This document shows, in pieces, positions 1,796 through 46,115 of a DNA stretch of 54,934 nucleotides. Every line of letters starts with the position of its first letter. The stretch's first letter is position 1. The stretch is from positions 1 through 54,934 of IMG/VR virus record IMGVR_UViG_3300029263_001128; one strand, 5' to 3'. The notes under the pieces were generated by a model. That model was not told the DNA's origin and did no database searches. It saw only the letters and a program-made list of their open reading frames with translations. Source of the DNA: a virus. A program made the position numbers and the translations under genes.

Positions 1796-2191
1796 ATGGA
1801 AATAACGAAAAAAAGATTAAAAGCAATCATAATGGAAGAAATCAAGAACATGCACGAAGCAGGTGCCTCTAGAACAGTAGGTGGTGAAGCAGGTCTACAG
1901 CAATTTTATGCGGACAACGACCTAGATCCAAATAAAGACAGAGCTTTTATGAAGGCAATGCAGAAAGTTGGCAGTAAGCGCCCTAAGCGCATAAGACCAT
2001 TTGAGGAGGAACTCTATGACATCTATAATTTCCTAATAACAAAAGGTCTATATGATGAGAAGATGTACCCCGATGGTTCCCGTAGTAGAATGCCGGAGCC
2101 CGGAACAGGTGATCCCGAAGTTGCTCGTGCAGAACTCGTTAAAACTCCCGCTGACCCAAAGGCGATAGACTACGTTCTTGAACGATTGTGA
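1796..2191 (+). CDS. Tagged hypothetical protein, MKITK-class N-terminal peptide
   Basis: 131 residues starting MEITKKRLKAIIMEEI, closely like the start of the 7221 protein (MKITKARLKQIIKEEL). Ile12-Met13-Glu14 fits the [LI]-x-E rule of T4-type prohead protease sites, at the same position as in the MKLLLENWR proteins. The body, rich in Asp/Pro/Lys with a DPNKDRAFMKAM stretch near residue 42, is not recognised. The ribosome-binding site is AAGGAG. I infer a head-targeted or head-core protein; a plain cytoplasmic protein with an amphipathic N-terminal helix is the alternative. Confidence 0.6.
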   Translation: MEITKKRLKAIIMEEIKNMHEAGASRTVGGEAGLQQFYADNDLDPNKDRAFMKAMQKVGSKRPKRIRPFEEELYDIYNFLITKGLYDEKMYPDGSRSRMPEPGTGDPEVARAELVKTPADPKAIDYVLERL

Positions 2192-3765: not shown

Positions 3766-4455
3766 TTGAAATTATTACTTGAAAATTGGAGAAAGTTTAT
3801 TAACGAAGCCGACGATTCTAACTTCACGGTCTCAATGGACCCTCAAGACTTTTTGACCCTAACCTATCAGGACGATGCTGACATCGAAGGCAGATCCGAC
3901 TACATTATTGGAATGCCGGGCGGTTTTGATAAGGCGAAAGCCGGTAAACTATCTCTCGTTATCAAGAAGTGTTACGGCGACGATGTAGATAAGGTAATTT
4001 CCCACGCCGGGCGCGCACGATCTATGGCTGCTATGAAGTCGAGCATCGAGCAAGTGCCCGTAATCTTGACTTTTGTTAATTGTGAAGAGCAGCCTGTTCG
4101 TGGAATGAGCAGCTTAAGCTTTACTACAGGCCGGATAGAGGGGCAATTTGATAATTCTTCTGTCTCGGTGGACAAAATAGGCCAACACGAATCCCAAGGC
4201 ATCCTTGATCTTGACACAAAGACAGAAATGTCAGTAGGAGAATTGCTAAAAGTCCTACGAATTGCTTCTTTGGAGAAATCCAGAAGCAACTACAGAATGG
4301 CTGACCTTGTTTTGGACCTAAACAAAGAATATAATTTTATGTTCTCGGGCGGACCTGAACAGGTGAAGGTTATAGTGAGAAACGGACTTCGTTTTCCGGG
4401 GTTTGAGTCAGATCCTCCCGAAGATTCCAATGTAAAAGTCTTAAATAAAGAATAA
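3766..4455 (+). CDS. Tagged putative virion-packaged protein 1 (function unknown)
   Basis: 229 residues beginning at TTG: the frame from 3766 reads (M)KLLLENWRKFINEA, matching the next five genes, so this start is chosen despite the rare codon. Ile12-Asn13-Glu14 is a prohead-protease-like site. The body has no recognised domain; it is mixed alpha/beta, with a beta-rich middle (residues 95-140) and a C-terminal VIVRNGLRFPGF stretch resembling the VLRNGLRPSP stretch of the ADP-ribosyltransferase-like protein at 6714, a possible distant link. The start follows the previous stop by one base. Confidence 0.7.
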   Translation: MKLLLENWRKFINEADDSNFTVSMDPQDFLTLTYQDDADIEGRSDYIIGMPGGFDKAKAGKLSLVIKKCYGDDVDKVISHAGRARSMAAMKSSIEQVPVILTFVNCEEQPVRGMSSLSFTTGRIEGQFDNSSVSVDKIGQHESQGILDLDTKTEMSVGELLKVLRIASLEKSRSNYRMADLVLDLNKEYNFMFSGGPEQVKVIVRNGLRFPGFESDPPEDSNVKVLNKE

Positions 4456-4457
4456 TA

Positions 4458-5099
4458 ATGAAACTCCTACTTGAAAATTGGCGTGCCTATCTGGATGAAG
4501 AGCAGATAAACGAAAAAATGATGCTGAAACCCGGTCCACAGGGCTGGGATCTCTACGCACAGATAGTTGGCGATGCCTATTTAGCTGCTCCCAGGTTTGA
4601 ACAGAGGGCAGTTCCGCATTTTCAAGCTATGATACCCTTTCTGGAAAAAATGTTTAAGAGGATCTCAAGCAGAGTAGACATAGAATTCGTTGATTACCAC
4701 CCCTACAACACAGCAGCAGAGCTAAGGGATTCGGTAAAGAGCACTGGAAAGATGAAAATAGCAACAATTGATGCTGAAAACGATGTATTTGATGAGATCA
4801 CAAACGCAAAATTCAGAGCGGTCCACGATTATATGTCTCACATTCAGGCAATTGGTTCAAGAGGGACTGAATTTGATTTGAGAGGGGAGCTTGCCTCCTA
4901 TAATGCTCACCTCAAAACAATGCCACAGGAGTCTATTCCTGCCTTATTTACCGAGATTGTCGGACAGACTTGTGCCTATCACGCTGGTGGTGGCACTTTC
5001 GCAGAACAGAAGATCTGTCTATTAGATGGCTTCGATTACACCAACCTTGGTGTTGTCGAGGGTTACGACATAGTTAATAAGGAATTGGTAAAGAAATGA
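4458..5099 (+). CDS. Tagged putative virion-packaged protein 2, possible metal-binding enzyme
   Basis: 213 residues: N-terminal MKLLLENWRAYLDEE (Leu12-Asp13-Glu14), then a helical domain. Residues about 115-150 contain FRAVHDYMSHIQ, then RGELASYNAH, a His-Asp...His and Glu...His arrangement suggestive of a metal site, followed by ALFTEIVGQTCAYH. I have the impression that this arrangement recurs in marine phage proteins of unknown role, but cannot verify it here. It overlaps the next gene by four bases (ATGA), indicating translational coupling within the tagged operon. Confidence 0.7.
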   Translation: MKLLLENWRAYLDEEQINEKMMLKPGPQGWDLYAQIVGDAYLAAPRFEQRAVPHFQAMIPFLEKMFKRISSRVDIEFVDYHPYNTAAELRDSVKSTGKMKIATIDAENDVFDEITNAKFRAVHDYMSHIQAIGSRGTEFDLRGELASYNAHLKTMPQESIPALFTEIVGQTCAYHAGGGTFAEQKICLLDGFDYTNLGVVEGYDIVNKELVKK

Positions 5100-5611
5100 A
5101 ACTACTACTTGAAAATTGGCGAAATTTCTTGACTGAAGGAGATGTCTTGCGTATAGGGGCGTCCAATAGAAATATAGAAAATCAAAAAAGTCCAGAACTC
5201 TATGGCAACTGCGGAATGCTTGCTGTAGCTCTTTTAGAAGAAGGTATTAAACGCAACAAACAAGTGCAGGTCGTTTTCCTTCATAGCGCCGAAGATCCCC
5301 TTGAAGACGAAGACTATGACTTATATCATGTTGCCATGTATTATAATGGAAAATATTATGACGATCGTGGAGAAACTACAGAAAAAGAAATGTCTAGCCT
5401 AGTCCCCCTCGGATTAACAACTCCACAAAACGAGGAACCCCGCCAAGGGAGAGACTATAATCTAGATTCTTATATAGTTGATGATATGCAAGGTCTTGAC
5501 TATATTTATAAAATAGTTGAGTCCCTTACAGGCTGGTCAAAAACTTGTGATGAATATAGGCAGAGGTCCATAAAATTTTGGGATGGAATAGACAATGAAA
5601 CTACTACTTGA
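5096..5611 (+). CDS. Tagged putative virion-packaged papain-like protease
   Basis: 171 residues: tag MKLLLENWRNFLTEG (Leu12-Thr13-Glu14), then a compact domain with YGNCGMLAVALLEEG (Cys39 at the start of a helix), DLYHVAMYYNGKYYDDRGE (His, then Asp). The order Cys-helix, His on a beta-strand, Asp on the next is that of papain-like or transglutaminase-like folds. The predicted role is cleavage or modification of a host protein after injection (inference). The last residues (NETTT) are encoded by the first bases of the next gene's tag read in another frame. Confidence 0.6.
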   Translation: MKLLLENWRNFLTEGDVLRIGASNRNIENQKSPELYGNCGMLAVALLEEGIKRNKQVQVVFLHSAEDPLEDEDYDLYHVAMYYNGKYYDDRGETTEKEMSSLVPLGLTTPQNEEPRQGRDYNLDSYIVDDMQGLDYIYKIVESLTGWSKTCDEYRQRSIKFWDGIDNETTT

Positions 5612-6248
5612 AAATTGGCGAAAGTTCTTGACTGAAAATGAGGCAGCTTACTTCCCTTGGTTAGAGGAATTAGAAAACAAGGGCGGAAAAGCCCTTATGA
5701 GTCCCGATTTTCAACAAGCAGGTTCGGGAGCATTCCGTGTTGTCTTCAAACCAAAAGGAGATGAGGAGCACGTCATCAAGCTATCGAAAGATCCTCGCAA
5801 CAATTGGATGAATAAGATAGAGTCTGAAACGGCCAACTCTTACCCTGATTTGTTCCCCAAGACATTTGCTCACGCTGATGACTGGGAATGGATTGTCCAA
5901 GAAGCTGTCGAGGTGTTGAGCCGAAAAAACGAACAACAAATGCGTGTTATGTTACAGAAGACTTTTCCAAACATTTATGTTGTCTTCAAGGGCGCAACTA
6001 TAAAAGATTATGAACTTTTTCTCTTATGGAGCGATATCGTAGATGCCGCCAAAGGCCCTTACGCAACAAAAGACCAAAAGATTTTTGATTTTGGAATAAA
6101 AAATGAAAAAGCCTTTATTCAACTTGCTTCAGCTATCTCTAGATTCAAAATAGACAGCGAAGATCTGGGTTATGGCAACATAGGGATAAATGAACAAGGA
6201 CAATTAAGGATCTTAGATGCCTCTGTGCTCTTTAGACCAAAGGAATAA
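5595..6248 (+). CDS. Tagged putative virion-packaged protein kinase
   Basis: 217 residues: tag MKLLLENWRKFLTEN, then a small kinase-like domain. Visible elements are a glycine loop AGSGAFRVVF (residues 42-51), the ATP lysine in VIKLSKD (Lys62), a hinge-like WIVQEAVEV, a catalytic-loop-like DLGYGNIGI (Asp190, Asn195) and ILDAS (Asp208) in place of DFG. The His of HRD is missing. T4 and T7 phages also use early protein modification, so phosphorylation of host targets right after injection is plausible. The first 42 bases differ from the 5096 gene at a single position, although the bodies are unrelated. Confidence 0.75.
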   Translation: MKLLLENWRKFLTENEAAYFPWLEELENKGGKALMSPDFQQAGSGAFRVVFKPKGDEEHVIKLSKDPRNNWMNKIESETANSYPDLFPKTFAHADDWEWIVQEAVEVLSRKNEQQMRVMLQKTFPNIYVVFKGATIKDYELFLLWSDIVDAAKGPYATKDQKIFDFGIKNEKAFIQLASAISRFKIDSEDLGYGNIGINEQGQLRILDASVLFRPKE

Positions 6249-6250
6249 TT

Positions 6251-6730
6251 ATGAAAATATTACTTGAAAACTGGCGGCGATTTATAAATGAGGATGTGCG
6301 AGTCACATTTAAAAAAGCAATTGATCTGGTCTGCCCTCCGGCAACGCAGGACTTGAAGCTTAACACAAAGAACCGTGATTCCGCAATTCATACTGAATAT
6401 ATCCAGTATGGCCCTTTAAATGTAGATAAGCCCGGTGACTACTGGGAGGAAATAGCAGATTATTGGGACTCAACCGAAGAAGCAGCCGAAGCTTCTAACT
6501 GTGGAGTTTGCACTGCTTTTGACATCTCTCCTCGGATGCTGGAATGTATGCCCGGAGAGACATCCGATGACGACGGGCTTCTCGGCTATTGCTGGATGCA
6601 CCACTTCAAGTGCCACTCTGCGCGAGCTTGTAGGACTTGGGCAAAAGGTGGCCCGATAGAAGAAGATTCAGTTTCTGCTGATTGGCAGGAGCGCTCAAAT
6701 ATTGGAGATAAAGATGAAACTCCTACTTGA
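6251..6730 (+). CDS. Tagged putative virion-packaged Cys/His-rich protein
   Basis: 159 residues: tag MKILLENWRRFINED, then an acidic domain. Residues 83-135 hold CGVC, a single Cys, and GYCWMHHFKCHSARAC with WAKGGPI after it, which looks like a zinc or metal site built from Cys and His. The closely packed motif suggests a conserved module, but I cannot name its activity. The C terminus (DKDETPT) is read out of frame from the tag of the following gene, a 17-base overlap. Confidence 0.65.
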   Translation: MKILLENWRRFINEDVRVTFKKAIDLVCPPATQDLKLNTKNRDSAIHTEYIQYGPLNVDKPGDYWEEIADYWDSTEEAAEASNCGVCTAFDISPRMLECMPGETSDDDGLLGYCWMHHFKCHSARACRTWAKGGPIEEDSVSADWQERSNIGDKDETPT

Positions 6731-7154
6731 AAACTGGAATAGGTTTTTGGCTGAAGCTGTAGAACTCCCTTCTGAATGTGAAGGTGAGGAAGGATATTAT
6801 CACTCTCTTCCCTCGTCTTTGATCAAGTCCGTACTAAGAAACGGACTCCGACCCAGCCCATCAGGGAGCGATTCAAAGTTCGGATTGGGTGAATGGTCTG
6901 CTGGCAAGTCTTTTATCTCGATGGGATATAGTAATGCAGTAAAGTGGCAAGTTCAGATAGAAGAGGCAACAGGTGAGCCTGCTGGCATTGTTCAGATAGA
7001 ACTGCCAGATGATTTTATAAATGCTCTGAAGCTTGACACACAGGCCGTAGATGACGGAGATCATTGTGCTTTCTATGTAGAAGAGGTAATTCCATCAAAG
7101 TTTATCACCCTGCTTGATTATGGCCCATCTGATTACTTTGAAGACGATGAATGA
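6714..7154 (+). CDS. Tagged putative virion-packaged ADP-ribosyltransferase-like protein
   Basis: 146 residues from ATG 6714 (GGAG 7 bases upstream). Tag MKLLLENWNRFLAEA, then GYYHSLPSSLIKSVLRNGLRPSPSG, SAGKSFISMGYSNAVKWQ and YVEEVIPSKFITLLDY. This succession (Tyr-His, a helix ending in Gly-Leu-x-Pro, a beta-strand with Ser/Ile, a late Glu before Ile-Pro) resembles the small RNA 2'-phosphotransferase/ADP-ribosyltransferase fold. T4 packages the ADP-ribosyltransferase Alt in its head, a direct functional parallel. Catalytic competence is unproven. Confidence 0.6.
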   Translation: MKLLLENWNRFLAEAVELPSECEGEEGYYHSLPSSLIKSVLRNGLRPSPSGSDSKFGLGEWSAGKSFISMGYSNAVKWQVQIEEATGEPAGIVQIELPDDFINALKLDTQAVDDGDHCAFYVEEVIPSKFITLLDYGPSDYFEDDE

Positions 7155-7183
7155 AGCTCCTAATTGAAAGTTGGCGCAACTAA
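7151..7183 (+). pseudogene. Orphan N-terminal tag (10 codons)
   Basis: ATG at 7151 overlaps the preceding stop as ATGA and reads MKLLIESWRN followed directly by TAA. It is the same tag as in the six genes before it but has no cargo, and it stops just before the [LI]-x-E site. It is best explained as the remnant of a deleted member or as a landing place where cargo can be exchanged. It may still be translated by coupling. Too short for standard gene callers. Confidence 0.6.
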
Positions 7184-7192
7184 ATAAACCCA

Positions 7193-7199
7193 CTATTTA
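7193..7199 (+). promoter_or_regulatory. CTATTTA candidate phage promoter element
   Basis: Heptamer 21 bases before ATG 7221 in a 37-base intergenic gap that separates the tagged operon from the next gene; an AGAGGAAG ribosome-binding site lies between them. Confidence 0.45.
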
Positions 7200-7220: not shown

Positions 7221-7646
7221 ATGAAGATTACCAAAGCAAGACTAAAACAGATCATCAAGGAAGAACTTGAGAATGTAGTGGAGGACCGCCAACCAAAATA
7301 TAAAATCAAGGCTTCTGATGTTAGCAAGGCACGTAAGATCCTTAATTATGCTGGTCACGGCTATGCCCTTGACGATGAGGGTAATCTACAAGCAGACGAT
7401 AAGTCCGTTAAGCTGCTTATCCCGAGCGGGATCGGTGTTCGGAGTGTGGAGGAAAAATTAAATGAAGAACTCACCCGTCAAGACAAAACCGATGTAAAGA
7501 AGATGGTCAAGGACGAACTTGAGAAGCTGCTTAAGAAAAAGGATACCAAGGATCAGATGGGTGAGATTGCAAAGAGAATTCTAAAGAAGCTTTACAAGGA
7601 TCTTTCATTAGAGCATCCATACATTATTGACCGCATCAAGATTTGA
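7221..7646 (+). CDS. Helical protein with MKITK-class N-terminal peptide
   Basis: 141 residues, highly charged (Lys/Glu) and predicted largely helical. It starts MKITKARLKQIIKEEL; Ile12-Lys13-Glu14 is a potential prohead-protease site and the peptide parallels the 1796 protein. Three more DVKKMVKDELEKLL-like amphipathic helices follow, so it may be a scaffold or core protein of the head rather than an enzyme. It has its own CTATTTA element, unlike the coupled genes before it. Function not established. Confidence 0.6.
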   Translation: MKITKARLKQIIKEELENVVEDRQPKYKIKASDVSKARKILNYAGHGYALDDEGNLQADDKSVKLLIPSGIGVRSVEEKLNEELTRQDKTDVKKMVKDELEKLLKKKDTKDQMGEIAKRILKKLYKDLSLEHPYIIDRIKI

Positions 7647-9515: not shown

Positions 9516-9683
9516 ATGAAGCAGACCAATAGTTTTGTCGATTCCATGTCTCTGACATGTGTTTTGATAAACATTGGTCTGTTCTTGTTTGCGTGCTGGT
9601 CCGGCTATTTACAAATACAACTATTAACACTATTTAATGTTGCCTGCTTTTCGTTGTATTTTTTAATTCTAGGTAGAAAATAA
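9516..9683 (+). CDS. 55-residue two-helix membrane protein
   Basis: MKQTNSFVDSMSLTCVLINI starts a hydrophobic protein with two probable membrane helices (about 12-32 and 36-52) and a short Arg-Lys C terminus. It fits exactly between the promoter-like element and the next gene, overlapping its ATG as TAATG. Ribosome-binding support is modest (GAGGG). It could be holin-like or an exclusion factor; no family is recognised. Confidence 0.55.
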   Translation: MKQTNSFVDSMSLTCVLINIGLFLFACWSGYLQIQLLTLFNVACFSLYFLILGRK

Positions 9684-10900
9684 TGTATCAAAAATTTTGG
9701 AATCAATTTTTAATAGAACAAGAAGAACTTGTTGGAACCACTGTTGACTTTCCTCCAGCTAACTCAAAAAGAATTGGTAGAAAATGGGGTGCAGGTGATA
9801 AGCCTGCTCGCGTGCCGCCCCCGGCACGTTCCCACCCATCCCCCTTTACCACAGGGATTGGGGCTTATTTAATTAGCAAAGGCTATGATTTAGATACAAA
9901 GCTTGGTGGCGGCGTTGATGGCATTGTCTACCGAGCAATAAATAAAAAGACCGGTAAGAACGTGGCTGTAAAAGTTGTTCTCAGAACAACACAGGGAGAT
10001 ATGAAAAGAGAAGCTGCTAACTACAAATTCATTTTAGATAACAGAGAATCACTTGGACAATATGCAAAATATTTCCCCGTGGTTTATTCTTCGGAAATAG
10101 ACCAGATACCTGCAAACAAAGAGACAATGGAAGGAAGAAAAGTAGAAGCTGCCATTATTATTATGGAACAACTTGAACTTCTGCCAGACGATGTTGCAAG
10201 AAGTCTTTTTGCAACAAATGTCAATTATAAGAAAGACAAGCAAGCAAGAACCCAGAGAGACAAGAGGCTTTTTAAAAGCTATAAACTCGTTGGAAACCTG
10301 ATCAACATGGCTATTAGCTTAACTGATCCCGCATACACAAGTCCATTCATCTCTTATGAGGCGCAAGAAAAAATAGAAAAATCAATAATAACAACAATGT
10401 TTGGTAAGAAGCGTTACGCCCCGGTGCGACCGGCGGGTGTCTCGCCTTTAGGGGTCCAAGGGTTGACTGATGAGGCTAAGGAACTTATGAACTTATTCGT
10501 AAATGTGACGTATACGTCAATACTAAGAGATCCTACGAGTAAAGCAGATATGGATATTGTTATGGATTACAAAGATATTATCAAGCGTGATTTAGCAAAC
10601 GCTTTTATTAAAGCGTATTCTCGACCCATTGTCTCTGGGGGTGTCCCTGACGCCCTCAGAGTAGGCTCAAGCTTAAAGGGTTTTGACCAATACTATTCTT
10701 CTGAAGATGCGGTAGGTGACCATTTCCCAGAGTCAGTTGGGATCAGAAAGGCAATGCAAGCACTCTCAGGCGAAGGTTTAAAGCCATTTGATGTTCACAA
10801 CGGAAATGTTATGATGAGACCCAAGACAAATGAGATTGTTATTGTTGACCTTGGGAGGTTCAAGGGGCTTGAAACCAACGAAAGTCTCAGAAATGTATGA
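9683..10900 (+). CDS. Tagged large protein kinase-like protein
   Basis: 405 residues. A variant tag, MYQKFWNQFLIEQ, has Leu10-Ile11-Glu12 as a possible prohead-protease site. After a Pro-rich linker (21-55) comes a kinase-like domain: glycine loop LGGGVDGIVY (74-83), ATP lysine in VAVKVV (Lys97), hinge IIIMEQLE, catalytic loop KPFDVHNGNVM (Asp370, Asn375) and IVDLG (Asp389) for DFG. A long insertion between the lobes (180-340) is unusual. The second tagged kinase after 5595; it may be packaged and phosphorylate host proteins early (inference). The C terminus overlaps the nuclease gene by 8 bases. Confidence 0.75.
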   Translation: MYQKFWNQFLIEQEELVGTTVDFPPANSKRIGRKWGAGDKPARVPPPARSHPSPFTTGIGAYLISKGYDLDTKLGGGVDGIVYRAINKKTGKNVAVKVVLRTTQGDMKREAANYKFILDNRESLGQYAKYFPVVYSSEIDQIPANKETMEGRKVEAAIIIMEQLELLPDDVARSLFATNVNYKKDKQARTQRDKRLFKSYKLVGNLINMAISLTDPAYTSPFISYEAQEKIEKSIITTMFGKKRYAPVRPAGVSPLGVQGLTDEAKELMNLFVNVTYTSILRDPTSKADMDIVMDYKDIIKRDLANAFIKAYSRPIVSGGVPDALRVGSSLKGFDQYYSSEDAVGDHFPESVGIRKAMQALSGEGLKPFDVHNGNVMMRPKTNEIVIVDLGRFKGLETNESLRNV

Positions 10901-11274: not shown

Positions 11275-12270
11275 ATGGGCGGCAATGTTTTCACTGGTGA
11301 GGCTGTTGAGTCAATCCCTATGGAGTTTATCCAGCCGACACTGGCGGCTTACTACCAAGAACTATCGGCTTTGTTCCCCCAGCACTCCAATTTCTTTAAA
11401 ACCTTCACCACTTTGGGGTCTGTCGGTAAGAAAAGCAAGTCTGGCGACATTGATCTGGCTGTAGACGTAAAGAAATTGTTCCCGCAAGGCCGGATAACCA
11501 CCGAAGATCTACAAAGTTGGAACCTAAATCCCGCGTTGTGGCGTGAAACCTATGAAAAAATGCTAAAGCGGGCACGAACTGCTACACCACACGAGGTTTC
11601 ACTGCGTGCGTTCCTCTATGAACTATCAAAATACATTGGTGAGCGCTCTAATTTGATCAAAAGTGACCTTAAAAAGGTGCGTCCAGGCCAAATGTTCACG
11701 CTTTTCCCCCAAATTACCGATTTTGGTCAGCAAATGGAGGTCTCCGTCCAGATTGATTGGATGTTGGGAGACCCAGAATGGCTAAAATTCTCTTATTTTT
11801 CCCCAATGCCCTCCAAAAGACAGCCTATGTTGAAGGGATTACACAGAACCCAGTTGATTTTGGCGATGTTTGGGGCAAAAGGCTATGCGTTTAGGCATGT
11901 GGGCGGTGTATTTCACAAGACCACAGGCAAAAAGGTCGCCCATAGCCCTTCAGAAGCCTCTGAACTGCTCCAAAAACTCTATGAGACACCTGTTACCACT
12001 CAAAAATTAGAATGCTTCAGCACCATCTACAGCTTTCTAACGTCCAGTTGTTCCAATGATGACCAAAATGGCGCCTTTGACTCTTATTTGTGCATCCTAG
12101 ACTACACAAATGGCAACAAAGAAGTTGATCCAAGCAGCGGAGAATGGCGTCGGTGTGGCTATATCCCTCAAGAACTAGAGGAATATTGGATCCTAAACAA
12201 AGAAAGACTTGGTTTGAAGGGCAGGTACCTCTGTAAGACCGCGAATCACAGGCTCCGTGCGTCGTTATAA
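11275..12270 (+). CDS. Nucleotidyltransferase-fold protein
   Basis: 331 residues. LGSVGKKSKSGDIDLAVD (about 47-64) is the GS-x10-DxD signature of the DNA-polymerase-beta nucleotidyltransferase superfamily, and VQIDWMLG (about 160) supplies the third carboxylate. The remainder is helical with a His/Arg-rich stretch. Members add nucleotides to RNA, proteins or small molecules; the substrate cannot be read here. A tRNA-maintenance or toxin-like role is possible. Clear AGGAG ribosome-binding site. It stands alone between two promoter-like elements. Confidence 0.7.
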   Translation: MGGNVFTGEAVESIPMEFIQPTLAAYYQELSALFPQHSNFFKTFTTLGSVGKKSKSGDIDLAVDVKKLFPQGRITTEDLQSWNLNPALWRETYEKMLKRARTATPHEVSLRAFLYELSKYIGERSNLIKSDLKKVRPGQMFTLFPQITDFGQQMEVSVQIDWMLGDPEWLKFSYFSPMPSKRQPMLKGLHRTQLILAMFGAKGYAFRHVGGVFHKTTGKKVAHSPSEASELLQKLYETPVTTQKLECFSTIYSFLTSSCSNDDQNGAFDSYLCILDYTNGNKEVDPSSGEWRRCGYIPQELEEYWILNKERLGLKGRYLCKTANHRLRASL

Positions 12271-17204: not shown

Positions 17205-17555
17205 ATGAAGAAGAATAGAAGATCAAAGTATAGATACAAGAGTATAATTAATAAATTATTAAATAATAATATCATAAATGAGAGTAACCTTACTTTCATT
17301 GATAGTATGTCTTTAGAAGATTTGATTGCTGTTAAATTAGAACTCTCAGCAAAACACATAAACAATAAGCTTTATGCTTTCAATCTCTTATCTAATACCA
17401 ATAGACTAGTTAAAGAAGCAATCATAAAGTTTGCTATCAGTGCTACTAACTCTAAAATGGATGCTGCTAGGTTTCTTGGAACTGACTATGAAACTCTACA
17501 CTCACTAGTTAGAGAATACAACTTACAGGAGTTCTTTGATGAAATTAATAATTGA
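17205..17555 (+). CDS. Fis-like helix-turn-helix regulator
   Basis: 116 residues, basic N terminus. The C-terminal 45 residues (AIIKFAISATNSKMDAARFLGTDYETLHSLVREY) follow the Fis/NtrC helix-turn-helix pattern: helix, Thr-Asn-x-Ser turn, AARFLG, then a recognition helix with Leu. It should bind DNA and may control phage genes. Its own promoter gives a leaderless-type mRNA. The stop lies 17 bases inside the next gene, giving coupling to the tagged ADP-ribosyltransferase-like protein. Confidence 0.6.
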   Translation: MKKNRRSKYRYKSIINKLLNNNIINESNLTFIDSMSLEDLIAVKLELSAKHINNKLYAFNLLSNTNRLVKEAIIKFAISATNSKMDAARFLGTDYETLHSLVREYNLQEFFDEINN

Positions 17556-18231
17556 AAACTTCAGAAAGTTCTTAGTAGAACAAAACTTTATTTCTGAGAT
17601 TCCGTTAGAACAAGATGAAGAAGGTAACGTCATCCTCTATCACGTATCCAGAGTAGATGACATAGAAGAGTTAGACCCTGACATCGCAGCAAGAAACCTT
17701 CAGAACTACACCACAGCAGAGTATAGAACCTGGGATAGACCCAGAGTTTTCTTTTTTACTCGTCTCGGACAAGAAGATATTGGCATTGGTCAGATACAGG
17801 GTATACCTTACCGTGTTAGACTAAAACCAGATCAACTCTACCCGATTATGGAAGACCCGGCAGGACTATCTTCCAAGCAAGAACAACAAAACTGGATGAC
17901 AGAGAACATTCCAGAGTTTGCTGAAAAGACACAAGAAGCACAGAAGTGTTCTAACTTTGAACGCTATGGCCAATACCATATTTGTTCTAAGACCCCAGAT
18001 TCAGATGGGTTATATTTTACTGATGAGAGGTTTGCAGGAAAAATGTTTCTTGTAAACAATCCTAAGTTTCATCACCTTAAACCAAACACATACGAAATGG
18101 TTGCACAACTATCAGAAGAGCGTTATAATAGTATAGGGTTCATTTATCCACAGAGTGGCGAAAAAGACAAACAGATCGTTGCTTTGTGGCGTAAGGTTCC
18201 AACAGAGAAACTAGATAAAGATTTTTATTAG
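17539..18231 (+). CDS. Tagged ADP-ribosyltransferase-like protein
   Basis: 230 residues from ATG 17539 (AGGAG 7 bases upstream; TTG 17536 is less likely). Tag MKLIIENFRKFLVEQ has Leu12-Val13-Glu14. Then VILYHVSRVDDIEELDPD, YTTAEYRTWDRPRVFFFT and a late Glu-rich region. Tyr-His followed by a beta-strand with Arg-Pro-Arg-Val-Phe-Phe is the style of phage ADP-ribosyltransferase-like proteins, comparable to the start of the Tpt1/ART fold. It is the only MKLLLENWR-type member outside the 3766-7183 block. Predicted to be packaged and injected (inference). Confidence 0.55.
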   Translation: MKLIIENFRKFLVEQNFISEIPLEQDEEGNVILYHVSRVDDIEELDPDIAARNLQNYTTAEYRTWDRPRVFFFTRLGQEDIGIGQIQGIPYRVRLKPDQLYPIMEDPAGLSSKQEQQNWMTENIPEFAEKTQEAQKCSNFERYGQYHICSKTPDSDGLYFTDERFAGKMFLVNNPKFHHLKPNTYEMVAQLSEERYNSIGFIYPQSGEKDKQIVALWRKVPTEKLDKDFY

Positions 18232-28824: not shown

Positions 28825-30056
28825 GAAAAAAAGTTATTCTTAAGGGTCCACTTTTGACCCGTTCTGGCTATGGAGAACAGGCTCGCTTTGCTCTTCGTTC
28901 TCTTCGCTCCCGCGAAGATCTGTTTGATATTTTTATCCAGCCTTTATCTTGGGGGCAAACCTCTTGGTCTTGCGATATGGATGAGGAGCGACTTTGGATT
29001 GATCAAACAATTGAGAAGACTATTGGCCACATTCAACAAGGAGGTCAGTTTGACATTTCATTGCAGGTCACAATTCCTAACGAGTTCCAGCCTATGGCAC
29101 CCGTTAATGTAGGCTACACAGCCGGCATTGAGACGACAAAAGTCGCACACCAGTGGATTCAAAAAGCTAATGAGATGGACAAGATCATTGTTGTTTCTTC
29201 ACATTCCAAGCAGGTGTTTGAGAACACAGAATATGAAGCTACAAATAAAGAAACTGGAGAGCAAGTCACTTTAAGAACGCAATCTCCAGTAGAGTTTGTG
29301 AACTATCCAGTAAAAAGCCATGAGACACTCCCAGAGTTGGAATTGGGACTTACAACATCGTTTAATTTCTTGGCTGTAGCACAGTTCGGCCCAAGAAAGA
29401 ATTTACAAAACACCATTAAATGGTTTATCGAAGAATTCAGAGAAGACGATGTCGGTCTTATTTTAAAATCAAACATGGCAAAGAATTGTTTGATGGACAG
29501 GAAGAGACTTCACTCAGAGCTTACAAATTTTATAAGAAAACAGGGAGAGAGACAGTGTAAAGTATACCTCCTACATGGCGACATGACTGACGCAGAAATG
29601 CACGCGCTCTATAATGATAATCAAGTCCACGCATTTGTCTCTCTCCCTCACGGAGAAGGTTTTGGCCTTCCGCTATTTGAAGCTGCATATTCTGGACTCC
29701 CTGTGGTCACTGTAGGCTGGTCTGGGCAGCTAGATTTTCTTGTAGACACCGAAGGTCAAGAACAATTTTACAACGTCGCCTTCGACCTCCAGCCAGTCCA
29801 GAAAGAGGTTGTTTGGGATGGGGTTATCACCCCAGACTCAATGTGGGCGTATGCTCGCGAGACTTCTGCTAAAGAGCAGATGCGTCTTTGCTATGATCAC
29901 GAGGTCGCCGGAACCACAAGGTGGGATAACTCTGGAATTATAGAGCGCTTCTCTCAAGAGAAGATGTATAAGCAGTTTATAGAAGCTTTTTACGAAGAAG
30001 AAAAGTTTGAAGTTTCAGAATGGTTAGCCGAGCTAGGAGAAATTGAAACACAATGA
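28821..30056 (+). CDS. GT4-type glycosyltransferase 2
   Basis: 411 residues from ATG 28821 (ATGA overlap; the frame upstream is unlikely). GPLLTRSGYGEQARFALRSL begins the first Rossmann-like domain and FVSLPHGEGFGLPLFEAAYSGLPVVTV is the E-x7-E donor site. FLAVAQFGPRKNLQNTIKWF marks the inter-domain strand. It is similar to its upstream neighbour in length and motif but clearly diverged. Probably adds the next sugar of the same chain. Confidence 0.85.
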   Translation: MRKKVILKGPLLTRSGYGEQARFALRSLRSREDLFDIFIQPLSWGQTSWSCDMDEERLWIDQTIEKTIGHIQQGGQFDISLQVTIPNEFQPMAPVNVGYTAGIETTKVAHQWIQKANEMDKIIVVSSHSKQVFENTEYEATNKETGEQVTLRTQSPVEFVNYPVKSHETLPELELGLTTSFNFLAVAQFGPRKNLQNTIKWFIEEFREDDVGLILKSNMAKNCLMDRKRLHSELTNFIRKQGERQCKVYLLHGDMTDAEMHALYNDNQVHAFVSLPHGEGFGLPLFEAAYSGLPVVTVGWSGQLDFLVDTEGQEQFYNVAFDLQPVQKEVVWDGVITPDSMWAYARETSAKEQMRLCYDHEVAGTTRWDNSGIIERFSQEKMYKQFIEAFYEEEKFEVSEWLAELGEIETQ

Positions 30057-30886
30057 AGATCTTCTTTGTCGCTGACTTTTTCTTAAGAGACATCTTGGGC
30101 GGTGGTGAACTAAACAATCACGAACTGGTAAGGTTGCTTAAGACAAAAGGGTTTACGTCAAAAGAAGTTCAGAGCCATCTTGTTAACAAAGAGTGGATTA
30201 AAGAAAGAGACAACTTTGTTATTAGCAACTTTATCAATTTATCCGAATTGTGTAAAAATCAACTACTAAACAAAAAATACATAATCTATGAACACGATCA
30301 CAAGTATGTAAAAAATAGAAATCCATGCTTATATCCAGACTTTAAAGCACCAAAAGAAGAACTTATTAATTTAAACTTTTATAAAAATGCAAAAGCAGTC
30401 CTCTGTCAGTCTAGTTTGCATTTGGACATTATTCACAAAAACACTGGGTTAGATAATTTAGTCAATTTAGGCGGAAATCTATGGAGCACGGACTCGTTAG
30501 AGCACATGAGAAAGCTATGTGCACCGCCAAAAGAAGATAAATATTGCATTCTTGACTCCCACATACCACATAAAAATAAAGATGATGCAATAAGATATTG
30601 TAAAATTAAAAATTATAATTATTCTCTTGTGTCTGATTCGAATTACTACAATTTCTTAAAAAAAATGAGTTCAAATAGCGGGTTTGTTTTTTTTCCTAAA
30701 ACACCTGAAACTCTATCTAGGATTACTGTAGAAGCAAGAATGATGAATATGAAAACCATCACAAATAAAAATGTTGGCGCAATAAGCGAGCCTTGGTTTT
30801 CACTAAAAGGCGAAGAGCTAATAGACAGAATGTTTCTCAAAAGACAAGAAATAGCAGACAAGATAATAAGGATTTTAAATGAATAA
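30053..30886 (+). CDS. Divergent, shortened GT-B glycosyltransferase
   Basis: 277 residues, shorter than GT4 enzymes (about 350-420). IFFVADFFLRDILGGGELNNHELVRLL is the N-terminal glycine-rich motif, YIIYEHDHKYVKNRNP a conserved-looking mid segment, and VFFPKTPETLSRITVEARMMNMKTITN resembles the donor site with Glu-Ala replaced around E-x7-E. From about 30050 onwards the DNA is more AT-rich than the preceding glycosyltransferases. Donor and acceptor unknown. Confidence 0.7.
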   Translation: MKIFFVADFFLRDILGGGELNNHELVRLLKTKGFTSKEVQSHLVNKEWIKERDNFVISNFINLSELCKNQLLNKKYIIYEHDHKYVKNRNPCLYPDFKAPKEELINLNFYKNAKAVLCQSSLHLDIIHKNTGLDNLVNLGGNLWSTDSLEHMRKLCAPPKEDKYCILDSHIPHKNKDDAIRYCKIKNYNYSLVSDSNYYNFLKKMSSNSGFVFFPKTPETLSRITVEARMMNMKTITNKNVGAISEPWFSLKGEELIDRMFLKRQEIADKIIRILNE

Positions 30887-31628
30887 CCGATTTGTAATAA
30901 TTACTCCGTTTTATAATGTAGAGGAGTGGATTAGTCTTTGTGTAAAAAGCGTAAAAAAACAAAATTATGATAATTACGTCCATTATCTTATAGATGATTT
31001 ATCAACTGACAACACAACAGATAAAATAGAAGCACTTTCAAAAGACACAGACAAGATCTTTCTAGTAAAAAACACAGAAAAGAAATATGCTTTGAAGAAC
31101 ATTCATGACACGCTACAGTCCATTGACATAGCTGACAATGACATTGTCGTAATTTTAGATGGAGACGACTGGCTTGCGAGCAGTGATGTCTTGGAAAGGA
31201 TAAACAAAGAGTATCAAGAAACAAATTGCATAATGACCTATGGCTCTTATGTTGAATATCCCTCTTTGGAGAGAGGCAAGTTTGCCAAGAAAATTCCTAA
31301 TCAAATAATAGAACAGAGATCTTATAGAAGGCATCAGTGGATGTCATCTCATTTAAGGACATTTCGTCACAAGTTATGGAAGAGAATAGATAGAAAAGAT
31401 TTTATAAACGAAGAGACAGGCAATTTTGTAAAAGCAGCATGGGATTTGGCTTTTGTTTTCCCGATGTTGGAGATGGCTGGCCACAGGGCTCACTACATTA
31501 AGGACATCTTATACATGTACAACCGTAGCAATCCTCTCAATGAAGATAAGGTTGACCACCCTCTACAATTATCTGAAGAGGCGCAAGTCAGAAGAAGACA
31601 TCCTTACCAGTTAATAGAGGAAATATAA
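30879..31628 (+). CDS. GT2-family glycosyltransferase
   Basis: 249 residues. FVIITPFYNVEEWISLCVKSVKKQ, HYLIDDLSTDNTTDKIE and DNDIVVILDGDDWLAS (the DxD metal site) are diagnostic of GT-A family 2, with inversion of the anomeric carbon. The C-terminal HLRTFRHKLWKRI and AWDLAFVFPMLEMAG complete the domain. No membrane helices, so it is cytoplasmic. It overlaps both neighbours by one to eight bases. Confidence 0.9.
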   Translation: MNNRFVIITPFYNVEEWISLCVKSVKKQNYDNYVHYLIDDLSTDNTTDKIEALSKDTDKIFLVKNTEKKYALKNIHDTLQSIDIADNDIVVILDGDDWLASSDVLERINKEYQETNCIMTYGSYVEYPSLERGKFAKKIPNQIIEQRSYRRHQWMSSHLRTFRHKLWKRIDRKDFINEETGNFVKAAWDLAFVFPMLEMAGHRAHYIKDILYMYNRSNPLNEDKVDHPLQLSEEAQVRRRHPYQLIEEI

Positions 31629-33259
31629 TGAGAATCCTTGGACTAATGTCAAGCCATGATTGCTCTTTTGCAATTTTAGACAAAGGAATCCCAGTGTTCC
31701 ACGCGGAATTAGAAAGATACGTTAGAAAAAAAGAACCAGAGGGCGATCCCTTTGCTTTTTTTCAAGATGTGTGTGGACAAGATGCCTGGAAACAAATTGA
31801 TGCGATAACTGCTTGTCATGGTTTTGTGGAGCATATGAGGAGCAATTTTCCAGATGGTTTCGAAAAACTTATGGAAATTGTAAAGAATAATAACATTCCG
31901 TTTTACAGCGTAGGACATCACCAGAGCCATGCCGCAAACGCTTTTTATTCTAGCAACTTTAAAGAAGCACTGGTGGTGACTCTTGATGGCGGCGGCCTGG
32001 ATCTAGCGTCAGATAACTCTTCTATTATTCCCACCTCTTTTACTGTGTGGGATGGGGAAGATAAAAAGCTAAGGAATGTTTCAATAACTCACAGCGAATT
32101 ATTAAACATTGGTTTTGCTTGGCAAAGGGTCACAAGACTTGTTTTTGGCCTTTCTGCTGGCTACCCAAAGGGCAACCAAGCAGGAACAGTCATGGCAATG
32201 GCTTGCATGGGAGACGCAGACAAATATTTGGATTATTTTGAAAAATTTAATTTTACCAATAGTTCTTTTCACGTTGATAGTCCTGAAAGTGAAAAGTATT
32301 TTGATTTTGTAAAGATGCGAGAAATAGCCTCCAGATCCGAGCAAGATGCCTTTGATGTTGCGGCTGCTCTTCAGAAAGCAACTGAAAATAAAGTAAAGCA
32401 AATCTTTGATGTCCTTGTGAAACAAACAGATAGAAAACTTCTTTGTCTCTCTGGAGGCGTTTTTTTGAATTCTGTAATGACAGGTAAATTATACGAATGG
32501 TATAAAGACAAATTTGAAGAAATTTATGTGTGTCCTGTCTCATACGACGCTGGGATTTCTATAGGGTCCGCACAATTTGTGTGGCACCACGTAATGAAAA
32601 AACCCAGAATTGAATGGAAAAACAATGCAACTCCTTTTCTAGGAGAAACTTATGAAACAACAGCTATAGAAAAAGCTCTTGCATCTATGATCTATATTGA
32701 TGGCAAAGATTTAAAAGTCACCAACGCTGGCATAGACGAAATAATAGACTTACTAGATGGCCAAAACATCATCTCTGTATTTTCAGGACCGTCCGAGTCG
32801 GGACGCCGTGCTTTAGGAAACAGAAGTATTATCGCCGATCCTAGGCGCCTTGAAATGAAAGACACAATTAATGAAAAGGTGAAACATCGTCAATGGTATC
32901 GTCCGTTTGCTCCTTCAATTTTAAGAGAAAAGGTTTCTGAATGGTTTGAGATAGACATAGATAGTCCTTACATGTCTTACGTTATTGATTTTAAAGAAGA
33001 AATGAGAAATAAGGTGCCTGCCGTTGTTCACATCGATGGCACTGCTAGATTACAAACAGTCACAAAAGAAGATAATGGCTGGTATTATGAGTTAATAAAA
33101 AAATGGGATCAAAAGACGGGAGTGCCAATCATCTTAAACACTAGCTTCAATGATCGTGAACCAATTGTCGAAACTCCTGAACATGCTATCTCTTGTTTTG
33201 TCGGCACAAACATAGACTATTTATATTTTGTTGATGCAAAGATTCTAGTCTCTAAATAG
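31628..33259 (+). CDS. NodU/TobZ-family carbamoyltransferase
   Basis: 543 residues. ILGLMSSHDCSFAILDKG, VGHHQSHAANAFYSSNF, VVTLDGGGLD, LSGGVFLNSVMTGKL and PSESGRRALGNRSIIADPR are the motifs of the Kae1-like domain plus the C-terminal carbamoyl-transfer domain. It places a carbamoyl group, from carbamoyl phosphate via carbamoyl-AMP, on a sugar hydroxyl. The length is normal. It probably decorates the glycan made by the surrounding genes. Confidence 0.9.
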   Translation: MRILGLMSSHDCSFAILDKGIPVFHAELERYVRKKEPEGDPFAFFQDVCGQDAWKQIDAITACHGFVEHMRSNFPDGFEKLMEIVKNNNIPFYSVGHHQSHAANAFYSSNFKEALVVTLDGGGLDLASDNSSIIPTSFTVWDGEDKKLRNVSITHSELLNIGFAWQRVTRLVFGLSAGYPKGNQAGTVMAMACMGDADKYLDYFEKFNFTNSSFHVDSPESEKYFDFVKMREIASRSEQDAFDVAAALQKATENKVKQIFDVLVKQTDRKLLCLSGGVFLNSVMTGKLYEWYKDKFEEIYVCPVSYDAGISIGSAQFVWHHVMKKPRIEWKNNATPFLGETYETTAIEKALASMIYIDGKDLKVTNAGIDEIIDLLDGQNIISVFSGPSESGRRALGNRSIIADPRRLEMKDTINEKVKHRQWYRPFAPSILREKVSEWFEIDIDSPYMSYVIDFKEEMRNKVPAVVHIDGTARLQTVTKEDNGWYYELIKKWDQKTGVPIILNTSFNDREPIVETPEHAISCFVGTNIDYLYFVDAKILVSK

Positions 33260-33269
33260 GAAAATAGTA

Positions 33270-34055
33270 ATGCTATCTTGTGAAATGGTCGGAAGGCTCG
33301 GCAATCAAATGTTTATTGCAGCAGCAGCCCACTCCTTGGCCTTAGATAACGATGATCAGGTAATTTACCCGAATTCAATAGGCGGCATTTGCCCCACGCC
33401 AGATGAAACAATAGTCCATCGAAAAACCATATTCAGAAATTTACATTATACCAATGATCTATCTTTTTTAAAGTTTGTGTATTCGGAAAGCCCAAGCATG
33501 GAATTTAAAGAGATCGACTATAGAGAGAATCTTTTTATCAAAGGCTACTTCCAATCAGAAAATTATTTTAAGCACAACAGGGAACACATAATAAAACTTT
33601 TCTCACCTCAAAGAGAAATAGAAGAGTTTATAAACAAAAAACACAGTAGCCTCATTGATAGTAGCGAACATGTGTCAGTTCATGTTAGGCGGGGTGACTA
33701 TCTAAAATTAAGTGATTATCATAATGTCTTGGGAAAAGGATATTATCAAAAAGCTATGAAAGAATATGATGGAGCAAAATTTGTTTTTTTTAGTGATGAT
33801 ATCGATTGGTGTCGAGAGACATTCAAAGGCCGCAATTCTGTATTTATTGAAAAGCAGCCTGATGTAATGGATCTTTTTTTAATGTCAAAAATTACTCATA
33901 ACATAATAGCAAATTCTTCTTTTTCTTGGTGGGGAGCTTGGCTAAATAAAACTGAAAAGCAGACGGTTGTCTGTCCTAGTGAATGGTTCGGCCCCAAGAA
34001 CAGTCACTTGATTACAAAAGATTTAACACCTTCATCATGGAATGCTATAGTGTAA
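33270..34055 (+). CDS. Alpha-1,2-fucosyltransferase (GT11)
   Basis: 261 residues. MVGRLGNQMFIAAAAHSLAL at the N terminus, SVHVRRGDYLKLSDYHNVLG (the HxRRGDY donor-binding motif), FFSDDIDWCRE and IIANSSFSWWGAWLN are the ordered motifs of GT11. It would transfer L-fucose (or a related 6-deoxyhexose such as colitose) from the GDP-sugar. With the GT10 gene directly next, the cluster has two fucosyltransferases of different linkage. A CTATTTA heptamer lies 46 bases before its start. Confidence 0.9.
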   Translation: MLSCEMVGRLGNQMFIAAAAHSLALDNDDQVIYPNSIGGICPTPDETIVHRKTIFRNLHYTNDLSFLKFVYSESPSMEFKEIDYRENLFIKGYFQSENYFKHNREHIIKLFSPQREIEEFINKKHSSLIDSSEHVSVHVRRGDYLKLSDYHNVLGKGYYQKAMKEYDGAKFVFFSDDIDWCRETFKGRNSVFIEKQPDVMDLFLMSKITHNIIANSSFSWWGAWLNKTEKQTVVCPSEWFGPKNSHLITKDLTPSSWNAIV

Positions 34056-34074
34056 TTATCAAATAGGAATTTTT

Positions 34075-35001
34075 ATGAAAATTGAAGAGTTTATAGACAA
34101 CATTAAAAGAGACGACGAGGGGCATGTTGTTCTGAATCTAATAGATAACACCATCCTCCACACTAGCTACTTAGCGTCTGCTCTCCGTTGCAGTGCACCA
34201 AACCATGAAAGAGATCCCGATAACGTCCGCTATGTGAACGGGATGAGAGACTGGGACGGAATAACAGTCTTCACAGACAAAACGTTCCATTTGGCACCAC
34301 AAGTTACCAGCCCTATCAAGATTGCTTGGGTAGTGGAGCCCTATGACCTGCTGCCACAAATTTATGAGTTAGTTGTTAAATTTGAAGATGAGTTTGATTT
34401 TATCTTTACTTACGAAAAGACTCTTCTGGACAGAAATCCAAATAAGTATAAATTTCTTCCTTGCGACACATCAGGTATAGAAATAGAGAGCCACAAACTA
34501 CATCAAAAAACAAAGCTTGTATCTATGATCTATTCTGAAAAAACTTGGTTATTTGGCCATAGGCTGCGACATATAATAGCAAAAACATTAATACCTGAAA
34601 TGGGTTATGATAAGATTGATTTTTTTGGAAGAGGCACCACTACGCCAATTGAGTTAAAATCAGAAGGCACGAATCCCTACATGTTCCAGATAGCTATGGA
34701 GAATGCAAGAAGAGAAAATTACTTTGCTGATAAAATCTATGACTGTTTCGTAGCTGGAACAGTTCCCATTTATTGGGGTGCCCCTAACGTCGGAGATTTT
34801 TTTGATATGAGAGGGATTCTTTCGTTCGAGCACCCAGCAGAATTGAAAGAGATTCTTTTATCTCTTAACCAAGAGAAATATGAATCAATGTATGACGGCG
34901 TAAAAGAAAACTTTGAAAGAGTAAAGCACTATCTTCGTCCAGATGACCTTTTATACGACAGCATTATTGATCAACTAAGACTCAGAGGAGAATCTGCATG
35001 A
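34075..35001 (+). CDS. Alpha-1,3/4-fucosyltransferase-like (GT10)
   Basis: 308 residues. IAWVVEPYDLLPQIY and FIFTYEKTLLDRNPNKYKFLP lead to MFQIAMENARRENYFADKIYD, CFVAGTVPIYWGAPNV, which parallels the GT10 core FxxxxENS...YxTEKLxxxxxxGxVPVxxG. It would use GDP-fucose or a GDP-fucose-like donor as an inverting enzyme. No membrane anchor, as for bacterial GT10. It overlaps the next gene by four bases. Confidence 0.8.
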   Translation: MKIEEFIDNIKRDDEGHVVLNLIDNTILHTSYLASALRCSAPNHERDPDNVRYVNGMRDWDGITVFTDKTFHLAPQVTSPIKIAWVVEPYDLLPQIYELVVKFEDEFDFIFTYEKTLLDRNPNKYKFLPCDTSGIEIESHKLHQKTKLVSMIYSEKTWLFGHRLRHIIAKTLIPEMGYDKIDFFGRGTTTPIELKSEGTNPYMFQIAMENARRENYFADKIYDCFVAGTVPIYWGAPNVGDFFDMRGILSFEHPAELKEILLSLNQEKYESMYDGVKENFERVKHYLRPDDLLYDSIIDQLRLRGESA

Positions 35002-35687
35002 AAGACTATGATCCACTCAGAGAATACGCTTTAGAAAAATTAAAATCAGACGGTTTGATTGAAGATGCGTGGGGTGCAGTTGATCTATTTGAGAGAACAG
35101 TGGCGGAATACACAGGAAGCAAATATGCTGTTTCGGTGGACAATTGCACAGATGCAATTTTTCTTTGTCTGAAATATCTAAGGTGCGACCAGGAATCAGC
35201 AACTATTACGATACCGGAAAGAACTTATTGTTCAATTCCAATGACCATCAACAATGCCGGGTGTAATTACAAGTTTAAAGATTTTGAGTGGTCTGGAACC
35301 TACCAGCTTACTCCTTATCCAATTTATGATTCGGCCTTGAGACTAACTAAGGGGATGTATGTAAAAGACACCTTTCAGTGCCTATCTTTTCATAGGAGAA
35401 AGATTCTGAAACTAACCAAGGGCGGAATGATTCTCACTGATAATCTCGAAGCGGCTGAGTGGTTTAAGGCCGCTCGCTGCAAAGGCAGGCACCCTCACAG
35501 AAAAACCTTCTATAAAGATGAAAAGTTTGATACAATGGGGTGGAACATGTATTTACATCCAGAAGACGCTGCAAAAGCATATTTAATTTTAGAACAATTA
35601 CCAATCAACAACGAAGATGGAGGCGGAAGCAAATCTTATGACAATCTTACAAAACATAAAATTTTTCTTGAAAAAGAGACTCGCTAG
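34998..35687 (+). CDS. Compact DegT/DnrJ-like aminotransferase-fold protein
   Basis: 229 residues against 370-400 in typical DegT enzymes. TGSKYAVSVDNCTDAIFLCLKYL is the N-terminal PLP phosphate region, and LSFHRRKILKLTKGGMILTD has a lysine where PLP binds. Part of the large domain and the C-terminal domain are missing or reduced. It may be a minimal sugar aminotransferase or an inactive relative. No frameshift is visible; the ends overlap both neighbours. Confidence 0.65.
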   Translation: MKDYDPLREYALEKLKSDGLIEDAWGAVDLFERTVAEYTGSKYAVSVDNCTDAIFLCLKYLRCDQESATITIPERTYCSIPMTINNAGCNYKFKDFEWSGTYQLTPYPIYDSALRLTKGMYVKDTFQCLSFHRRKILKLTKGGMILTDNLEAAEWFKAARCKGRHPHRKTFYKDEKFDTMGWNMYLHPEDAAKAYLILEQLPINNEDGGGSKSYDNLTKHKIFLEKETR

Positions 35688-37749: not shown

Positions 37750-38170
37750 CAAATGGGAATGGGAAACCGCACATTTGACCCCTGGTGCAGGAATAATCTT
37801 ATTGCGTAAATTTAGCAATGACTGGATGGTTCTAGGACTATGGAAGAGCGGCGGCTATGATATAACCAAAGGTCATGTTGAAGACGGCGATGGTTATTTG
37901 GAGACGGCAATCCGAGAGGCTTTTGAGGAAGCAAATATAGATAAGATAGATTTTTGCTATGGGCACAAATACTACACCGCCGATTATTTAAGAATTTTCT
38001 TGGCTACCACCGAACAAGATGTTATAATAAAAGAGAACATAGATGGTTTCAAAGAGCATGATAACTACTCCTGGCTTACTTTAGAGGAAATGGAAAAACA
38101 AACCTATGATTATCTAAAGCCTGCCATAAGATGGGCAAAAAAGGAACTTCTTAATGGAAATAAAATTTAG
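37742..38170 (+). CDS. Nudix hydrolase
   Basis: 142 residues. TKGHVEDGDGYLETAIREAFEEANI is the Nudix box, close to GX5EX7REUXEEXGU but with Asp in place of the first Glu and Asn-Ile at the end. The REAFEE core is intact, so activity is likely. It would hydrolyse a nucleoside diphosphate linked to another group, perhaps a nucleotide sugar. It overlaps the radical SAM gene by 8 bases and the next by 17. Confidence 0.85.
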   Translation: MDSKWEWETAHLTPGAGIILLRKFSNDWMVLGLWKSGGYDITKGHVEDGDGYLETAIREAFEEANIDKIDFCYGHKYYTADYLRIFLATTEQDVIIKENIDGFKEHDNYSWLTLEEMEKQTYDYLKPAIRWAKKELLNGNKI

Positions 38171-39023
38171 CGACTTAATAAATAGACACAACGGTAATCC
38201 CGCTGTTATAACTTTATATGGTCCGTCATTGAACATCCACAAGGACAGGATTATCGAGCTACATAACAGGCAAGATATCTTAAGATTTTCTGTAAACAAT
38301 TGGTATGACTATTTTGACACCCAGCCAGATTATTGGATTCTGTCAAACTCTGAGCCTCGGTTTCTTATGAAAAATCTCATTCCATTTATAAAAGACAGAC
38401 AATTACCAGTGTTCTATTCAGATGACGGAGACTTTACGCCAAAAGAATTGATAAGAAATTCTCTGCAATCAGAATGGATGGCTTATGATCAGAGGCACTG
38501 GGAGGGCAAGGAGTGCAAACAAATTTTAAAAGAATTCAAGCAACATCATGATTCTAACAAAAACTTTAATTTCACCAAATTTGGTGAAAATGAAATTATG
38601 TGGCACCCACCTAGATGTTTTTCTATGTCGGGACACTCCCTAGATGGCCTGTGTTGTAAGCAAAATCTTCCTGCACGAATTCCTATTCAAGAACAATTAC
38701 AATCGCTCTGTGGTGTTGACAGACACTATAGCACAGGAGACACAGTTGCAGTTCATGCCATAGCTTTTGCGATAATCATGGGTTGCAATCCTATTTACGT
38801 TTCTGGATTAGATCTGGACTATTCCAGTGGCTATGCAAATCAAGATCAGGCAGACTGGGAACAAAAGGCCCAAGGTCCAAATGCTTGGGCTCCGGTGCGC
38901 AAAAATTTAGAAAACGATTTGAACATTTTAAACGAAAGTGCTGTTAAAAAAGGCATAGAAATTCTTAACTTGAATCCCAAACCATGGTATGATTCTTTTA
39001 AGCTGTCTGAATTTAATCTGTAG
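38154..39023 (+). CDS. Sialyltransferase-like (GT42/DUF115-type) protein
   Basis: 289 residues. AVITLYGPSLNIHKDRI at the start, then RFSVNNWYDYF, and STGDTVAVHAIAFAIIMGCNPIYVSGLDLDYSSGY with a C-terminal NILNESAVKKGIEILNLNP follow the order seen in GT42 sialyltransferases (N-terminal GPSL, later TSG...A...LGYKxIYLxGxD). The next two genes are CMP-sugar synthetase- and NeuB-like, which supports use of a CMP-nonulosonate donor. Similarity is structural in pattern; identity is not proven. Confidence 0.55.
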   Translation: MEIKFSDLINRHNGNPAVITLYGPSLNIHKDRIIELHNRQDILRFSVNNWYDYFDTQPDYWILSNSEPRFLMKNLIPFIKDRQLPVFYSDDGDFTPKELIRNSLQSEWMAYDQRHWEGKECKQILKEFKQHHDSNKNFNFTKFGENEIMWHPPRCFSMSGHSLDGLCCKQNLPARIPIQEQLQSLCGVDRHYSTGDTVAVHAIAFAIIMGCNPIYVSGLDLDYSSGYANQDQADWEQKAQGPNAWAPVRKNLENDLNILNESAVKKGIEILNLNPKPWYDSFKLSEFNL

Positions 39024-39038
39024 CTCGGAAAACCATTC

Positions 39039-41163: not shown

Positions 41164-41167
41164 CACC

Positions 41168-42641: not shown

Positions 42642-42645
42642 AGAC

Positions 42646-46097: not shown

Positions 46098-46115
46098 CTT
46101 AAAGGGTTGAAAAGA

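Follow-up and report, generated by a model that had tools for sequence, protein, structure and literature searches.

The internal proteins of bacteriophage T4 are the textbook case of phage proteins that are injected into the host, and few such proteins are known. Here we describe a 14-residue leader that is shared by the products of six consecutive genes in a viral DNA, positions 1 to 54,934 of IMG/VR record IMGVR_UViG_3300029263_001128 (this whole stretch of 54,934 nucleotides is the window in the following), and that resembles the capsid-targeting sequence (CTS) of the T4 internal proteins (IPs). The T4 IPs and the ADP-ribosyltransferase Alt are injected (PMC9026906, PMC12373910). According to a review of T4 work, the protease gp21 cleaves after L/I-X-E (PMC9026906). 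Residues 4 and 7 of the CTS are needed for targeting and residues 8 and 10 for processing, and an Asp at position 10 blocks processing while packaging is kept (PMC9026906). In the T4 record, IPII and IPIII start with MKTYQEFIAE and IPI starts with MKTFKEF. Alt is an enzyme that resides in the head, is cut by gp21 and is ejected into the host (PMC9026906). The anti-restriction IPs of T-even phages, of which at least ten have been reported, are unrelated injected proteins with only the leader in common, by which their genes are recognised (PMC12373910). In SPN3US and phiKZ, an S77-type protease removes N-terminal propeptides, often of 111-254 residues, after a short Glu-ending motif, A-x-E (PMC10052503). 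The CTS system of T4 is thus known; what would be new here is a much enlarged cassette form of it, with a second interchangeable leader.

Six plus-strand open frames of the window, starting at 3766, 4458, 5096, 5595, 6251 and 6714, share the N-terminal motif MK[LI]LLENW[RN]x[FY][LI]xE (tag 1, Table 1), and independent repeat detection recovered the DNA of the tag as a 7-copy family of 49-nt repeats. A preliminary description of this DNA had reported six consecutive genes with a common N-terminal tag and complete divergence past it, and both observations hold. It let the array end at 7183 because of a tag-only open reading frame (ORF) at 7151-7183, which is contained in the seventh repeat copy (7145-7193). 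Its inventory was correct for the six array genes, and missed the variant tags at 9683 and 17539.

A scan of IMG/VR with the full tag pattern matched at least 120 viral stretches. Among the matches listed are 196 unique tagged proteins, which BLAST (single linkage, E<1e-4) groups into 112 mutually unrelated families, 80 of which are singletons. Computed from the same matches with one protein per family, and at positions several of which the full-pattern scan had itself fixed, the information content is 5.4 bits for W8, 3.7 bits for F/Y11, 2.5 bits for L/I12 and 3.3 bits for E14. Conservation drops right past Glu14, to 0.58 bits at residue 15 and about 0.1 bits beyond. To free residues 11-14, the scan was repeated with only MKxxxENW fixed. 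Among the 200 proteins obtained, residue 11 is F/Y in 90%, residue 12 is L/I/M/V in 91% and residue 14 is E in 80%. For 49 exceptions, an [LI]-x-E tripeptide occurs within residues 10-20 in 30/49 cases, versus 6-11/49 in equal downstream windows (p=1.7e-8), the shifted forms being LLTE, LIKE, ILTE, VLNE and others. The tripeptide is retained despite the register shift and so behaves as a protease site would, and the earlier assignment of a gp21-type [LI]-x-E to residues 12-14 is borne out. Counted over the open frames of six genomes, 51 occurrences of the core motif start at residues 1-20, versus 25 in the next 180 residues. This positional bias, together with the number of matching viral stretches, shows that the tag is not due to chance. 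The tag is therefore confirmed as real and common to many unrelated proteins. A prokaryote genome collection yielded two matches to the pattern, and no relevant paper came up in a text search of the literature for the tag sequences.

When tag 1 is aligned with the T4 CTS, W8, F/Y11, L/I12 and E14 fall on Y4, F7, I8 and E10, with all spacings identical. Judged by this alignment, the tag is T4-like in exactly the residues that were mapped by mutation, with a start (MKLLLEN) that makes the leader four residues longer; the earlier impression that it is unlike that of T4 was wrong. Intermediate leaders were also found (MKAFKEYLEE, MSFDKWREFLAE, MKYSWKGFLGE), and one nucleotidyltransferase-like cargo, as we call the protein part behind the leader, bears three leader forms in different genomes. 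Like IPI-III, the tagged proteins combine a short N-terminal leader ending in [LI]-x-E with otherwise unrelated sequences, and T4-type gp23 and an S77 protease are encoded in genomes of the window's relatives. The differences from IPI-III lie in the more than 100 cargo families with enzyme domains, the six-gene cassette arrays and the second leader, and no cargo homology to the T4 IPs was found in the searches run. Compared with the T-even IPs, the more than 100 families that carry the leader here are without assigned targets. Alt differs more, since its N terminus reads MELITELFDED, and no window cargo matched it. As for SPN3US and phiKZ, the tags and capsid precursors described here carry [LI]-x-E and not A-x-E, and the leader is a shared one of 14 residues.

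A second leader, MKITKxxLKxIIKEEL (tag 2), starts 239 proteins from 200 families and 124 sources (viral contigs). An [LIM]-x-E ends at residues 18-26, mostly 21-22, in 69% of them, versus 6-13% in control windows. Tag 2 substitutes for tag 1 on the same cargo in different genomes, and its IIKEELxxVLxE part can tentatively be laid on tag 1 (LLLENWRKFLNE). We lean, by a small measure, towards the idea that there are two or more interchangeable codes for head loading in large T4-like phages, MKLLLENWRxFLxE and MKITKxxLKxIIKEELxxxLxE, which may share one core, and that they serve to pack into virions a pool of hundreds of protein families, exchanged as cassettes; the head would then be a general protein-delivery vehicle.

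The genomic context of the tags points to the head. All tagged records that reach 150 kb (13/13) encode the S77 prohead protease, and T4-type gp23 is found in 13/14 tagged records, plus 3/3. The N-terminal extension of the major capsid precursor ends in a conserved LL[RK]E in 13 tagged phages; this motif fits [LI]-x-E, and the precursors are presumably cut there. In eight loci, members of a tag-1 family that homology identifies independently of the leader are encoded 343-1047 bp from the S77 gene, in the slot beside the protease where T4 places its prohead-core genes 67 and 68. In the 191-kb genome G050, the genes ahead of the protease (149754) encode a slot-family protein (148114), a tag-2 protein (148906) and a tag-2-like protein (149272). 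The gp23 proteins of tagged phages (L359-L371) are long, about 570-690 amino acids, and match the Pfam family in two pieces. As most control T4-like contigs differ in this respect, the tagged phages may form one distinct T4-like clade.

Comparison with G050, which aligns with the window at 75-89% identity in long stretches that are mostly collinear, places breakpoints at the tag. The 5096 unit (tag and cargo, 499 bp) is missing from G050, the junction falling within the tag repeat. For the 6714 gene, homology to G050 spans the tag and ends at 6756, one base past the Glu14 codon; the cargo differs, and homology resumes at 7193. The tag-only ORF in the seventh repeat copy is probably a remnant of such a cassette replacement. 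Leaders are also exchanged on conserved cargos. Within the 4458 family, tag 1 occurs in L399 (WRKFLIQE followed by KLYNLVRYP) and tag 2 in its relative L400 (LQKVLMTE followed by GIQNLVRYP), and in the 5096 family L384 carries tag 2. The 11275 protein begins where the mature form of its L004 homologue would begin, and no tag is found upstream of the window gene. Between the window and G050, whole cassettes of tag and cargo are gained and swapped at the tag boundary. Further tag-only mini-ORFs that resemble the one at 7151 occur in other contigs (MKLLLENWRGL* and MKLLLENWRGI*, in L070 and L216). The window and G050 also differ at 29860-46116, a region of glycosyltransferase-like and sugar-metabolism-like genes that has no DNA similarity to G050 and is aligned on both flanks; it looks like a replaced surface-sugar-like cluster.

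We suggest the following model. The 14-residue leader would be a CTS of the T4 kind, whose MKLLLEN start and W-x-x-[FY] pair would bind the prohead core. The S77 (gp21-like) protease would then cut past [LI]-x-E, at residue 14 or a little further on, and free the mature protein within the head. The unrelated cargos would accompany the DNA out of the head and be active in the host straight away, and tag and cargo would travel as cassettes, aided by the repeated DNA of the tag. The tag on unrelated proteins, its sharp boundary, the T4-like spacing, the shifted [LI]-x-E, the tagged family in the prohead slot, the breakpoints at the tag and the exchange for a second tag are, as a whole and as we hold with good confidence, best explained by a tag of the CTS kind that serves head loading, is removed by the protease and has exchangeable cargo, which is delivered with the DNA. 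Within this model, head loading and leader removal seem very probable; the delivery of most cargos into the host, for which the analogy with the T4 IPs and Alt speaks, seems probable with somewhat less assurance. The preliminary description, which had proposed a modular set of injected effectors, is thus partly supported: the modular tag, the cassette-like exchange, the S77-bearing T4-like relatives and the prohead-slot family agree with it, and the supposed unlikeness to T4 falls away. With a leader recognisable in sequence, the genomes of uncultured phages would become a catalogue of predicted virion-delivered proteins, whose plausible targets in the first minutes of infection are host defence and metabolism.

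Several points weigh against this model. The S77 protease also turned up in 6/6 viral contigs of at least 150 kb that were picked at random (two of them with weak matches). The co-occurrence of tag and gp21-like protease, suggested earlier as a check and found throughout the large tagged records, therefore has almost no power, and we dropped it as proof, since it merely fails to refute the model. By plain counting, tag-1 genes are no commoner beside S77 than genome-wide, so that plain adjacency was dropped as well and only the homologous slot family is informative. About 20% of the leaders (n=200) are without E14, and part of these are without any close [LI]-x-E. A short-query tblastn search, which has low sensitivity, found no credible match for the tag in cultured phages. 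The head gene cluster is not in the window, where neither an S77 gene nor a capsid gene is present. Finally, core binding, cleavage, packaging, ejection and cargo activity are steps that we infer.

It is conceivable that the leader guides its proteins into the prohead core and is removed there, and that most cargos work inside the head, in core filling, assembly or maturation, and are not injected. The tagged family next to the protease gene, in the slot of T4 genes 67 and 68, would fit, as the T4 products of this slot are core proteins, and IPIII of T4 contributes to head assembly (PMC9026906). However, the cargos form 112 unrelated families, in which domains such as Zeta-toxin/P-loop kinase, NUDIX, guanylate kinase and M23 peptidase occur, and cassettes turn over fast between close relatives; both speak against such a role, as does the injection of the T4 IPs and Alt. 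We consider an in-head role of most cargos unlikely.

Much less probable is an uncleaved interaction or localisation tag that has nothing to do with the capsid and directs proteins, for example, to a replication compartment, a membrane or a host complex. The leader is predicted to be a short helix, such helices serve many kinds of targeting, and the leaders that lack E14 would cause no difficulty. Such a tag would not, however, explain why [LI]-x-E is retained through register shifts, why the spacing of the T4 CTS residues is exact, why prohead-slot proteins are tagged, or why the untagged 11275 homologue starts at the predicted cut point. That the shared stretch is chiefly a DNA or translation element, such as a recombination site or an initiation leader, with the peptide incidental, is the least probable of all and scarcely credible to us. 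The tag DNA is indeed the repeat at which cassettes recombine, but synonymous codons vary freely at most degenerate positions while the residues persist, which argues for selection on the peptide. Moreover, the DNA upstream of the tags has a purine/A bias only, and tags that differ in DNA and length hold the residue spacing.

As for the cargos, domains recognised among the tagged proteins include Zeta toxin/P-loop kinases, guanylate kinase, NUDIX, DUF192, peptidase M23, LysM and tRNA-ligase CPD-like, and most cargos have no match at all. Within the window, the labels given earlier fared unevenly. Kinase-like and papain-like stand on motifs, and the family of the Cys/His-rich protein carries the annotation high potential iron-sulfur protein. 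An ADP-ribosyltransferase is unsupported, as no such similarity of the 6714 cargo was found in Pfam, NCBIfam or PDB sequences. The kinase-, papain- and ADP-ribosyltransferase-like assignments are thus weak. The 9683 protein has only weak kinase-type matches (PADLOC, NCBIfam) and the 5595 protein one chance-like NCBIfam match. Structure models of the 5096 cargo, in which C39, H78 and D89 are invariant, and of the 4458 cargo (mean predicted local distance difference test scores 64 and 76, respectively) gave no significant PDB match; in both, the helix predicted for the leader is modelled with low confidence and stands apart from the folded part. In the Actinomycetia phage DSL-LC01 (L357, 11752-17423), a relative of the 6251 cargo directly precedes three genes annotated as capsid maturation protease and major capsid protein.

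Table 1. Tagged genes and related features of the window.
Feature	Position	Strand	Tag or leader	Remarks
Tagged gene 1	3766..4455	+	3766-3807	TTG start; 229 aa; cargo without assigned function; TTG-start ortholog in G050
Tagged gene 2	4458..5099	+	4458-4499	phrog_3170-like cargo, function unassigned; homologues with tag 1 variants or tag 2
Tagged gene 3	5096..5611	+	5096-5137	Invariant Cys39, His78, Asp89; papain-like by motif only; cassette missing from G050
Tagged gene 4	5595..6248	+	5595-5636	Kinase-like by sequence motif only; phrog_4301 (function unassigned)
Tagged gene 5	6251..6730	+	6251-6292	Cys-rich family, phage annotation "high potential iron-sulfur protein"
Tagged gene 6	6714..7154	+	6714-6755	Cargo without database match; G050 homology stops at 6756
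Tag-only remnant (probable)	7151..7183	+	MKLLIESWRN*	Matches tag of G050 gene at same place
Variant short tag	9683..10900	+	MYQKFWNQFLIE	On weakly protein-kinase-like protein; kept in G050
Variant tag	17539..18231	+	MKLIIENFRKFLVE	Protein without assigned function; kept in G050
Untagged protein	11275..12270	+		Starts MGGNVF...; L004 homologue has MKLLLENWRKFLNE followed by GGNVF
Second-tag gene	1796..2191	+	MEITKKRLKAIIMEE	Leader of MKITKxxLKxIIKEE type
Second-tag gene	7221..7646	+	MKITKARLKQIIKEE	C-terminal part also in tag-1 protein of L043

The window as a whole is a T4-like fragment, with a baseplate-lysozyme-type protein at 49688 and PhoH at 23075. The T4 late promoter TATAAATA occurs close to the array at no more than chance level. 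At 999-1497, two small related ORFs stand in tandem, with an upstream block that is 85% identical between them (GGTTACATTACTTGTGTAATCAGACAGGAG).
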